Shown: in pieces, positions 45,585-50,079 of the stretch
How the letters are laid out: the number at the start of each line of letters is the position of its first letter
How positions within the stretch are numbered: position 1 is the stretch's first letter
Origin: an uncultured Archangium sp.
GTDB lineage: Bacteria; Myxococcota; Myxococcia; Myxococcales; Myxococcaceae
Length of the DNA: 64,000 bases
NCBI GenBank assembly: GCA_903905455.1
Contig: CAIVGN010000017.1
Span: forward strand, 1 to 64,000
Direction: 5' to 3'
Made by a program: the position numbers and the translations under genes
The notes under the pieces: generated by a model
Database searches by the model: none
Told to the model about the DNA's origin: nothing
Seen by the model: the letters and a program-made list of their open reading frames with translations, nothing else

Positions 45585-46829
45585 GTGACGCCGTCCCTGT
45601 TGCTCCTCCTCGCGCTGAGCCAGTCGCCCTCGCGGGTGAGCCTCGTCTTCGGCGGCGACGTCATCCCCCACGACCCCATCAAGCACGTGGCCTCTTCCCG
45701 CGCGCGGCTCGCCGAGGGCGGCAACAACGGCGGGTGGGATCACGTGCTGGGGCCGCTCTCGCCGGTGCTGCAGCGCGCCGACTTCGCCATCGTCAACCTC
45801 GAGACGCCCATCGTGGTGCTCAAGAAGCCCGAGGTGGGCGACATGGTGTTCAACGCCCAGCCGCCGCTGCTCGCGGCCCTCAAGCGCGTGGGCGTCGACG
45901 TGGCCACCTTCGCCAACAACCACTGCCTCGACCAGCACCGCGAAGGCATCGTCTCCACGCGTGGGTACCTGCGCGAGGCGCAGTTGCTGACCGCCGGCTC
46001 GGCCGAGAACGAAGACGCGGCCTGGACGCCGGTGGTGCTCGAGAAGAACGGCCTGCGCATCGGCATCCTCGCGGTCTCGCGCTGGCTCAACGGCTTCAAC
46101 AACAAGAAGGACCCGGCCCAGCCCCACGTGCCCACGGTGCCCTACGCCCGGGAGCCGATCACCGGCGGCCACCCGGTCGACGACTTCCTCGCCACCATCC
46201 GCGCACGGTCAGCCGAGGTCGACGTGCTGCTGGTGAGCATCCACTGGGGCGAGGAGTACCAGTTCGCGCCCTCCCAGGAGGACCGCAAGCTCGCCCGCCA
46301 GATGCTCGACGCCGGCGCCTTCGCGGTCATCGGCCACCACCCGCACGTGCTCCAGCCCGTGGAGTTCGTGGAGCGCAGCGCCGGCGGCAAGGGCCTCGTG
46401 GTGTTCTCCCTGGGCAACCTCGTCTCGAACCAGGACTTCGCCGACGTCAACGGCAGCAAGCGTGACGGGCTGCTCGTCGAGCTCGTGCTGGTGCGCGAGA
46501 CCCCCACCGGCCCGGTGCGCCTGGCCTCGGTCAAGGGCGTGCCCGTGGCCACCGAGAACAAGCTGGGCGGGGGCAAGAAGCGCAACGTGCAGGCGGTGCT
46601 CCTCGACGACGAACTCGAGGCCATCGACGAGCGCCTGCTCGACCTGCGGGGCCGGGTCGATCTCCGCTCGCGAGACGAGAAGAAGACCCTCGAGCAGCGC
46701 CGCAAGGTGGGCCTCGCGCGGCGCGCGCGCATCGAGAGCTTCGTGCTCCCGGGCATGCTCGATCGCGGCTCCGAGTCGACCGCCGCCCTTACGCGCCCCG
46801 GACGCGACCCTGAGTCTTTGACACCCTGA
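45585..46829 (+). CDS. CapA-family metallophosphatase-like protein
   Basis: A 414-residue protein of the CapA/PgsA poly-gamma-glutamate family with a signal-like N-terminus (SLLLLLALSQS). Calcineurin-like motifs: VSLVFGGDVIPHD, ADFAIVNLETPI, FANNHCLDQHREGIVST, LVSIHWGEEYQFAP and FAVIGHHPHVLQPVE, with GLVVFSLGNLVSNQ at the end of the core. These supply metal ligands (Asp, Asn, His). The last 90 residues are charged and helical. It may act in capsule or peptide-polymer handling; no capsule synthesis genes are adjacent. GTG 45585 is the start. Confidence 0.88.
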   Translation: MTPSLLLLLALSQSPSRVSLVFGGDVIPHDPIKHVASSRARLAEGGNNGGWDHVLGPLSPVLQRADFAIVNLETPIVVLKKPEVGDMVFNAQPPLLAALKRVGVDVATFANNHCLDQHREGIVSTRGYLREAQLLTAGSAENEDAAWTPVVLEKNGLRIGILAVSRWLNGFNNKKDPAQPHVPTVPYAREPITGGHPVDDFLATIRARSAEVDVLLVSIHWGEEYQFAPSQEDRKLARQMLDAGAFAVIGHHPHVLQPVEFVERSAGGKGLVVFSLGNLVSNQDFADVNGSKRDGLLVELVLVRETPTGPVRLASVKGVPVATENKLGGGKKRNVQAVLLDDELEAIDERLLDLRGRVDLRSRDEKKTLEQRRKVGLARRARIESFVLPGMLDRGSESTAALTRPGRDPESLTP

Positions 46830-46917: not shown

Positions 46918-48357
46918 ATGGCCCGCCTCGAACAACTCACCGAGTACCTGTTCACCCACCCGGGCAGCTCGATGTCGCTCGACTCGGATACGCCCGGTTT
47001 CTACATCGACGCGGGGGGCTCGGCGACGGCGGTGTTCCGTCACCCCATTCGCACCGGGCAGATCCTCCTGTTGTTCGCCGACCTGGTGCCGCGCGACAAG
47101 AGCCAGGACTTCCTCACGGGCACGCCCACCGACTTCGTCTTCGAGAGCCGCAAGGGCTCGCTGGCGGTGCACATGGTGATTCACGGCAGCGACCTGAAGG
47201 TGCGCGTCAAGCCGGCGCGCGCGGGCGAGGAGATGATGATCGGCGGGCGGGGCCTGTCGTCCGACTCCGCGCTGACCCGGCCCGCGCCGCCGCCGCCGCC
47301 GACCAGCGCCGACACGCCGCGGCCGAACCTGATGGCGATCATCGCGCAGCTCCCCGAGCAGCGGGTCAGCCACCTGCACCTCACGCCCGACCACCACGCC
47401 TTCGCCCGCGTCGACGGCCAGGTGCGCGCGCTCTCCGAGCTGGGTCCCTTCACCGCGTCGGAGATTCGCGAGGCGGTGCTCTCGCTCGCCCCCCAGGCGC
47501 AGCGCGAGCAGCTGGGCAAGAAGCCGGCGTTCGAGTTCAGCCACGTCTCGAAGGACGCGGTGTTTCACGTGCGCGGCCAGCTGGGGCGTGAGGGCTTGAG
47601 CGTGGTGGTGCGCGCGCTGCCCAAGGCGGTGCCCACGCCCGCGAGCCTCGGGCTGCCCGACGACTTCCTGCAGGTGCTGCGCGGTGGAGGCCTGTGGGTG
47701 GTGGCCGGCGGCGCAGGGCAGGGCACCTCGACCACCGTCGCCTCGCTGGTGCAAGCGGCGCTCGAGGCCCGGCCCATGACCGTGTGCACCCTCGAGTCAC
47801 CCATCGACTACGTGCTCGAGGCCAGGTGCGGGCTGGTGCGCCAGCTCGAGGTCGGGGCTCACGTGCCCTCGTTCGCCGCCGCCCTCGACGAGTCGCGCCG
47901 CGACGACGACGACCTGGTGGTGGTGGGGCAGCTCGACGACGCGCAGACGCTCGCCGCGGCGCTCACGCTCGCCGACCGGGGTCGCCTGGTGCTCGGGGTG
48001 CTGCACGCCCGGACGGCGATGAACGCGGTGCAGAAGCTCGTCGACCTGAGCCAGGGCAAGCCGGCGGCCCTGGCCTCGGTGCTCCGCGGGGTGTTCGCCC
48101 AGAGCCTCGTGCCCAACGTCAACCAGGGCCGCAGCCTGTGCTGGGAGCTGCTGCCCGGGTCTGACGTGGTGAAGGCCTTCGTGCGCGATGGGGTGCTGGG
48201 CACGCTGCCCACGCTGTTCACCCGCACCGCCGACCAGTCGTTGATGCAGCTCCTGGTCCGCGGGGAGATCGAGCTCGAGGTCGCGCTCGCCTGTGCCCGG
48301 GACCGGGGCTGGTTCGAAGAGCAGCTGGCCCGCGTGGCCCACCCGCGCGCGGCCTGA
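46918..48357 (+). CDS. PilT-like protein with degenerate ATPase motifs
   Basis: A 479-residue relative of PilT/GspE ATPases. Residues 1-105 and ~135-235 each resemble the PilT N-terminal domain (YIDAGGSATAVFRH, HLHLTPDHHAFARVDGQV), so this domain appears duplicated. The RecA-like half has VVAGGAGQGTSTTVASLV where PilT has a GxxGxGKST P-loop: the Lys is replaced by Thr. The Walker B/Glu site reads DLVVVGQLDD, with Gln for Glu. The His box region (LVLGVLHARTAM) keeps His. It probably binds or regulates a pilus motor rather than hydrolysing ATP; this is inference. A PilZ gene converges with it. Confidence 0.85.
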   Translation: MARLEQLTEYLFTHPGSSMSLDSDTPGFYIDAGGSATAVFRHPIRTGQILLLFADLVPRDKSQDFLTGTPTDFVFESRKGSLAVHMVIHGSDLKVRVKPARAGEEMMIGGRGLSSDSALTRPAPPPPPTSADTPRPNLMAIIAQLPEQRVSHLHLTPDHHAFARVDGQVRALSELGPFTASEIREAVLSLAPQAQREQLGKKPAFEFSHVSKDAVFHVRGQLGREGLSVVVRALPKAVPTPASLGLPDDFLQVLRGGGLWVVAGGAGQGTSTTVASLVQAALEARPMTVCTLESPIDYVLEARCGLVRQLEVGAHVPSFAAALDESRRDDDDLVVVGQLDDAQTLAAALTLADRGRLVLGVLHARTAMNAVQKLVDLSQGKPAALASVLRGVFAQSLVPNVNQGRSLCWELLPGSDVVKAFVRDGVLGTLPTLFTRTADQSLMQLLVRGEIELEVALACARDRGWFEEQLARVAHPRAA

Positions 48358-48379: not shown

Positions 48380-48736
48380 CTACTCCCCGGCGTGCAACGC
48401 GGTCTCGAGCGGCGCCGCGGGGCGCAGCACGGCCTTGAGCTCCGAGGACAGGTGCTCGAAGCGCACCGCGAACAGGTGCCGGCCGTCGGGCGCGGTCTGG
48501 CGCCGGAGCACGTGACCGCTGAGCCGGTGCGGAGCCGCGCCCGCCAACTGGAGCAGCAACTCGATGGGCGCGGCGTCGGGCAGCGGGCCGTCTCCCACCA
48601 GCAGCGCCCCTCCAGCCGAGAGATCCTCGACCAGGTACGAGCCCACGTACTTCGCGCGGGCAAAGACGACGGCGGTGGCGGAGACGGGGGTGCGCGCGTG
48701 CTGGCGCCGTTCACTTCGATTGCTGGAATACGGCAT
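48380..48736 (-). CDS. PilZ-domain protein
   Basis: A 118-residue single-domain PilZ protein. The c-di-GMP-binding motifs are present: RRQHART at the N-terminus (RxxxR) and EDLSAGGALL (D/NxSxxG). A beta-barrel pattern follows (IELLLQLAGAAPHRLSGHVL, RHLFAVRFEHLS). Such proteins change partner activity when c-di-GMP binds. It converges with the PilT-like gene 22 bases away, so a link to pilus regulation is attractive but not shown. Confidence 0.88.
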   Translation of the reverse strand: MPYSSNRSERRQHARTPVSATAVVFARAKYVGSYLVEDLSAGGALLVGDGPLPDAAPIELLLQLAGAAPHRLSGHVLRRQTAPDGRHLFAVRFEHLSSELKAVLRPAAPLETALHAGE

Positions 48737-48864
48737 GGGGTTGGGGGAAGTGATTCACGCCCCGTGCCGCGCGCGGCGCCCTCGGGGGGCCGGGGGAGCC
48801 CCCTGGGTCAGGCCCGGTCGACGGGTCGCCCACCTCCCTCCCGGTGACGGGTAGAGTGGAGGCC

Positions 48865-50079
48865 ATGCACTCGCGCCTCACCTGCCACCTCCACGCGGGG
48901 GCCGACGCGGTCGCCTCGTGCCAGGGCTGCCTCAAGCCCATCTGCGCGCCCTGCACCGTGATGGAAGGGTCGCTCGAGTTCTGTGCCCCCTGCGCCTCGG
49001 CGCACCGCAAGCGCCGCGGGTTCGGCCGGGCCCTGGTGGGCGTGGCGCTGGTGGCCGTGCTCGGCGGGGGCGCCGGCGCGGTCTCGTGGCTGGGCTCGCG
49101 GCCCAGGCCCTTGCCGCCGGCCCCTCCCGCGCCGCCGAAGTACGGCGCCTCCACCGGTCGCGTCGAGGAGCTGCGCAAGAAGCTCGCCCTCGAGCCGTGC
49201 GACCGCAAGGCCGTGCTCGGCCTCACCGAGAGCCTGCTCAAGGGTGACGCGCCCCGCGAGGTCATCGGCGTGGTCGACGACTTCCTCGGCCGGTGCGGCG
49301 CCTACGAGCGCCTGGTGTGGGACAAGTTCGCGGCGCACAAGCGCCTGAGCGAGTTCCCCCAGGCCGCCGCGGCCGCGAGCGTGTTGATGGCCCAGGACCC
49401 CATGGACCACGACTACCCGTGGTGGCGCGGCGAGATGCTCGAGGCCGCGGGCCAGACCGAGGAGGCCATCGTCGACTACCGCCTCGCGATGTCGCTGCTC
49501 CCGCGCATCAACTACGTGCCCACCATGCTCACCGACGCGCTCTTCAAGGTGGGCCGCCCCTGCGAGGCCGAGGCGCCGTTGAACATCTACCTCTACTTCC
49601 ACCCGGAAGCGCGCAGCGCCTCGGCCATCGAGACGCGGCTGGCGAAGCTGGAGGCGGCGAAGTGCGAGGTGTCGCTCGGCGAGGGCACCGCGGTCTTCAC
49701 CGCCCCCCGCGGCGCCACGGCGTTTCGCGGCCAGGTGAAGATCAACGGCAAGGCCACCGGCACGTTCATCGTCGACACCGGCGCCACCTCGGTGGTGCTC
49801 TCGCGGTCGTTCGCCGACAAGCTCGCCCTGGCCGCCCCGACGCGCGAGATCCGCCTGCGCACCGCGGCCGGGCTCAAGTCAGCGCAGCTCACCACCCTCG
49901 ACCTGGTGCAGACCCAGGGCGCGAAGAGCCACCACCTCGAGGCGGCGATCATCGACGACTTCGGCGAGGACGGCCTGCTGGGCCTGAGCTTCCTGAGCCG
50001 CTTCGAGGTGCAGCTCGACTCCGGCAAGCGCACCCTCACGCTGCGGCCGCGCAAGGTGGCCCCCGCGCCGCTTCACTGA
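48865..50079 (+). CDS. membrane protein with B-box-type zinc finger, TPRs and retropepsin-like protease domain
   Basis: About 404 residues. The N-terminus has a B-box-like zinc finger ([21 protein letters not shown], then CTV and CAPCASAH), followed by a transmembrane helix ([21 protein letters not shown]). The middle is helical and TPR-like ([26 protein letters not shown]). The C-terminus is a single-chain retropepsin-type aspartic protease: [22 protein letters not shown] has the DTGA active site, then [12 protein letters not shown]. It would act on the far side of the membrane. ATG 48865 follows GGAGG. Dimerisation would be needed for activity. Confidence 0.85.

Follow-up and report, generated by a model that had tools for sequence, protein, structure and literature searches.

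A conserved PilT homologue that has lost the residues expected of a working ATPase is encoded on the forward strand of the window (the whole stretch of 64,000 nucleotides analysed here), and we give somewhat better than even chances to the reading that it is an ATP-independent subunit or adaptor. Its sequence indicates a protein with the PilT fold that lacks the catalytic features by which PilT is defined. Pseudo-enzymes often reveal the non-catalytic jobs of their family, and a naturally dead PilT paralogue (below, the dead PilT) would make it possible to study the role of PilT beyond ATP hydrolysis by itself and to see what use evolution makes of it. Among open-licence papers we found none that describes a naturally occurring PilT pseudo-ATPase, nor, among those on myxobacterial PGA_cap proteins, any report of such a pseudo-ATPase protein. 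The open reading frame is uninterrupted from ATG to stop and is laid out as follows:

46918..48357, + strand: PilT-fold pseudo-ATPase of 479 amino acids (Pfam/NCBIfam, solved relatives, alignment, AlphaFold, Foldseek)
46918..47217, + strand: first PilT-type N-terminal domain, residues 1-100 (hhalign, AlphaFold, Foldseek)
47218..47325, + strand: Pro/Ala-rich linker, residues 101-136 (pLDDT under 50 for residues 103-133; fast evolving)
47326..47625, + strand: second PilT-type N-terminal domain, residues 137-236, the counterpart of the ordinary PilT N-domain (solved relatives, hhalign, AlphaFold)
47635..48354, + strand: RecA-like ATPase-fold domain, residues 240-479, with the catalytic residues lost (Pfam, solved relatives, alignment, Foldseek)
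47707..47733, + strand: degenerate P-loop GGAGQGTST, residues 264-272, with Lys replaced by Thr270
47917..47940, + strand: degenerate Walker B VVVGQLDD, residues 334-341, with Glu replaced by Gln338 and Arg by Asp340

The PilT-like identity proposed in a preliminary description of this DNA holds when checked against PilT structures. The protein matches T2SSE in Pfam with 65.5 bits, its nearest solved relatives are all PilT, with the alignment starting at residue 138, and its top match in the PDB is PilT 2ewv (E 2e-44), which we take to be the Aquifex protein. An AlphaFold model made with nine sequences (pLDDT 81.3, pTM 0.63) returned PilT4 as the top Foldseek hit (E 1e-31, TM about 0.8 by target length) and, among the best PDB matches, the PilT proteins of Geobacter and Aquifex; both parts of the PilT fold, the N-domain and the RecA-like domain, are thus found by AlphaFold and Foldseek. 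The PilT/PilU type IVa retraction ATPases (TIGR01420) share with it the fold, the domain order from residue 137 on and about 30% identity, and the P-loop region and His box remain recognisable. However, the dead PilT scores 198.7 bits against the NCBIfam model pilT_fam (TIGR01420), below the curated cut-off of 319.1; it has lost catalytic residues, among them the Walker A Lys, the Walker B Glu (Gln in the window protein) and the first of the two His of the His box; it carries an extra N-domain; and the region of the AIRNLIRE motif is degenerate.

The presence of two PilT N-terminal-like domains in tandem, also claimed earlier, was confirmed by profiles, AlphaFold and Foldseek together. When residues 1-102 and 134-236 were compared as profiles of 20 sequences, they matched with 97.3% probability (E 2e-11) over 98 columns, compared with 1.5% for a control pairing the first N-domain with the ATPase domain (hhalign). 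Profiles from the ten dead proteins alone gave a weaker match (45.8%), those from ten intact relatives 89.6%, and the first N-domain of the dead proteins matched the second of the intact ones with 88.9%. In the AlphaFold model, nine helices and strands follow one another in identical order in both halves. Modelled alone from a single sequence, the first N-domain reached moderate confidence (pLDDT 63), and the 29 best PDB matches of this model in Foldseek were all chains of PilT or PilU, with alignments of about 100 residues. The duplication itself was ruled out as a mark of lost activity, since intact relatives have the same layout.

These intact relatives, a two-N-domain PilT-like ATPase of Myxococcales (L060, L149 8487-10148, L020), share with the dead PilT the tandem layout and the Pro/Ala-rich linker. 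They differ from it in keeping all catalytic residues, in exceeding the pilT_fam cut-off (452.6 and 455.5 bits for the two tested) and in having a DUF6812 gene upstream, where the dead form has a CapA-like gene; DUF6812 is present in 19 of the 23 genomes with the intact form and in none of the 11 with the dead form. By clustering, this gene precedes the intact ATPase in 6/7 fetched loci, and examples with long Pro/Ala-rich linkers behind DUF6812 are seen at L149 8001-10148 and in L141-L145, an arrangement shared by many Myxococcales. No mention of DUF6812 was found among open-licence papers. A further PilT-like protein with a different N-terminal extension is encoded at L148 3397-5229 (G003).

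The two substitutions on which the preliminary description had rested its case, Thr for the Walker A Lys (Thr270) and Gln for the catalytic Glu (Gln338), are both borne out, the P-loop region reading GGAGQGTSTT and Walker B VVVGQLDD. The damage extends beyond these two sites: an interface Thr, the Asp-box Asp, the first His of the His box and the Arg that follows the Walker B Glu are lost as well. Residues were counted in the 10 of 11 carriers that could be aligned, one of them ending at residue 430 at the end of its contig; the G110 copy, split between contigs, stands outside this ten-protein alignment. Homologues do not keep a complete P-loop: its Lys is Thr (5) or Val (5) in all ten readable orthologues. 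In all ten, likewise, Ser or Ala stands in for the Asp-box Asp, Asp for the Arg two places past the Walker B Glu, and Arg or Lys for the first His of the His box, whereas P-loop Lys, Asp-box Asp, Arg, His and Walker B Glu are canonical in 10/10 intact two-N-domain relatives. A loss of the P-loop Lys that is shared by all ten readable orthologues, the residue being present in all ten intact relatives, is not due to chance. The lack of normal ATPase activity that had been proposed is strongly supported by sequence and by this conserved loss, and we regard it as probable.

The Walker B Glu position is less uniform, with Gln in four orthologues, Ser in one, Arg in one and Glu still in four. Because the Glu survives in these four of ten, catalysis was apparently lost stepwise, a pattern that points to loss of ATP binding before that of the catalytic Glu; the graded series, with Lys lost in all and Glu in some, would then be a natural record of a motor becoming a non-motor. 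Since four orthologues retain this Glu and all ten keep Thr272, Glu293 and the second His, the dead proteins may still bind nucleotide weakly. It could even be supposed that they are active, non-canonical ATPases in which the basic residues Arg354 and Arg/Lys356 replace the P-loop Lys. Arg354 is indeed invariant and position 356 is Arg or Lys in 10/10, both being new in comparison with the intact form, and the surviving Walker B Glu points the same way; but replacement of this Glu by Gln, Ser or Arg in 6/10 and loss of the Asp-box Asp in 10/10 make such activity improbable.

Contacts in the closed interface of Geobacter PilT are reported to include H230-T221, T221-T133 and R195-D161 (PMC6858323). 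T221, T133 and D161 of this protein align with Arg354, Ala266 and Ser294 of the window protein, and among the dead proteins position 354 is always Arg, position 266 Ala or Pro and position 294 Ser or Ala, each in 10/10. Since the equivalents of these interface residues are altered, the machinery for turning ATP into movement also seems to have been taken apart, and because residues of the closed interface have changed too, a static, ATP-independent subunit appears the most likely form for the protein to have taken.

Orthologues were found with a profile of six orthologous sequences in 11 of 96 genomes of one myxobacterial family, spread over three genera, and none outside those three genera among 195 genomes of the phylum; the weakest match listed in the phylum search (G034, 318 bits) is the intact relative L020. 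The nine named copies all come from metagenome-assembled genomes, labelled Archangium, Archangiaceae, Myxococcus, Myxococcaceae or Myxococcales. The idea of a widespread signature was rejected, as a DNA pattern for GAGQGTSTT occurs in 4/195 phylum genomes, all of the window's genus. In a tree of the shared part of the proteins (40 rows), the ten dead proteins form a single clade (support 100/100), whose stem is 2.1 changes per column long, and the intact two-N-domain proteins are its sister in the best tree, with weak support (75/85). This link between the dead clade and the intact two-N-domain lineage is supported by the first N-domain that they share (99.5% profile probability), and the dead PilT presumably arose from a two-N-domain PilT-like ATPase. 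The intact form occurs in 23/96 family genomes, the dead form in 11/96 and both together in none (hypergeometric P 0.04, with kinship ignored).

The ATPase domain of the dead proteins evolves with a dN/dS of 0.17-0.36 in 8/8 pairs (Nei-Gojobori), and that of the intact relatives with about 0.08 (three pairs), these figures being rough as some synonymous distances are large. For the first N-domain, dN/dS is 0.17-0.52 in seven of eight pairs and 1.06 for the pair of window and L017, and the linker evolves faster than the first N-domain in most pairs. The joint alignment has 94 invariant positions within the dead set, compared with 179 within the intact set. The dead PilT is therefore constrained, yet less so than its active relatives, its dN/dS being two to four times higher. 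With orthologues in 11/96 genomes, the Lys lost in 10/10 and dN/dS at 0.17-0.36, the open reading frame is neither an artefact nor a pseudogene. A gene in decay, without function and on its way to being lost, would be compatible with the relaxed dN/dS, with the long stem branch and with its clean absence from G002, a genome of the same genus that is 80% complete and has the locus without the dead PilT or any trace of it, the stop of the CapA-like gene there overlapping the start of the next gene (TGATG; L146 7815-7941). We consider decay very unlikely, however, since 9/11 copies have a full-length open frame and the two exceptions (G111, G110) are truncated by contig ends, since dN/dS of the ATPase domain is clearly below 1, and since the invariant positions have persisted over a divergence that takes identity down to 42%. 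That the dead PilT is dispensable follows from the example of G002.

In 11/11 carriers the dead PilT is immediately preceded, on its own strand, by a gene for a CapA-like protein, a neighbour that the preliminary description had not mentioned:

45585..46829, + strand: CapA-like PGA_cap gene of 414 amino acids, the conserved upstream neighbour (Pfam PGA_cap, 229.8 bits)

The two genes are separated by 88 nt in the window and by about 107 nt in G110, and in nine loci the gap ranges over 73-132 nt. Downstream genes vary between genera, no other gene beside the dead PilT is conserved in all carriers, no pilus-machinery genes were seen beside it, and a scan for sigma-70-like sites only found no sigma-70-like promoter. 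The window's CapA-like protein contains five short motifs that are, we assume, typical of CapA, and it is thought to be exported, a prediction from our reading of its N-terminus. Its match to MslH, a model for lasso peptide Trp epimerase, reaches 66.9 bits, far under the cut-off. Poly-gamma-glutamate synthesis as its role was rejected as far as this could be tested, the host genome having no match to the CapC family PF14102. When 30 of the 84 PGA_cap matches were placed in a tree, the CapA-like proteins linked to the dead PilT fell into one clade of 14 that includes three unlinked ones, and one gain with losses fits the history of the CapA-linked dead PilT.

The main rival to the adaptor reading starts from this neighbour. 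The dead PilT would have departed from pili altogether to become a non-motor protein serving an envelope process of the CapA-like protein, with the PilT fold as scaffold or sensor. That the CapA-like gene is the one constant neighbour, and that DUF6812 is absent from the dead-form carriers, argue for it. On the other hand, PGA_cap homologues are present in 82/96 family genomes, mostly without a dead PilT, and the CapA-like protein is therefore independent of the latter; its export, too, is a prediction. We regard this departure from pili as possible but rather unlikely. As the sole conserved neighbour is CapA-like, the tie of the dead PilT to pili rests on homology.

The host probably has a type IV pilus system, because its genome encodes a PilQ over the curated cut-off and, on contig C113, adjacent PilB-like and PilT-like genes whose motifs are intact. 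Four PilT proteins have been reported in M. xanthus (PMC6060248). A precedent comes from Vibrio cholerae, in which, as reported, an ATP-dead PilT still allows retraction driven by another ATPase, PilU, which is inactive without PilT, and a naturally occurring PilT variant, R206S, changed beside Walker B, characterises a hyperpiliated strain and makes PilU essential (PMC6762196). Judged by its position behind the Walker B Glu, R206 is the counterpart of Asp340 in the window protein. The Vibrio variants were made in the laboratory or belong to a single strain (MO10), whereas the dead PilT described here is a fixed paralogue, and a second N-domain goes unmentioned in the accessible sections of that report (PMC6762196).

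A fixed dead paralogue could fill the same PilU-supporting adaptor role as the dead PilT of Vibrio. It would keep the PilT fold without the residues for ATP binding and hydrolysis and would be a static subunit, serving an active motor as adaptor or partner; its tandem N-domains would offer the docking surface and the co-located CapA-like protein a tie to the envelope. The absence of activity, the assembly with a motor and the envelope role are all points that we infer, as is the target, which would be the pilus motor or another envelope process. A more specific proposal, which we hold to be doubtful, is that a dedicated pseudo-motor, fixed by nature after losing first ATP binding and then the catalytic Glu, and locked in an open interface, joins an active PilT- or PilU-like hexamer and tunes retraction together with an exported CapA-like enzyme of the same operon. 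The preliminary description had spoken of a regulator or capping subunit; a regulatory or non-motor role is the best reading, though a putative one, while the capping subunit had no evidence of its own.

A PilZ gene had also been noted next to the dead PilT, and it does adjoin it:

48380-48736, - strand: PilZ gene, convergent to the pseudo-ATPase (Pfam, 46.1 bits)

An association with it was not supported, however. The gene was not found in the nine other carrier loci searched (tblastn, E 1e-4), of which L081, L085, L086 and L087 ended early at contig ends, G110 being left out, and a functional partnership was rejected since a convergent gene that is not conserved is a chance neighbour. The PilZ protein, which among the examined carrier loci occurs only in the host genome, carries RxxxR and DxSxxG, presumably the signature of c-di-GMP binding. 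Further downstream in the window (48844-50079, + strand), a gene encodes an aspartyl-protease-like domain and TPR-like repeats, with a weak B-box-like zinc motif at its N-terminus.
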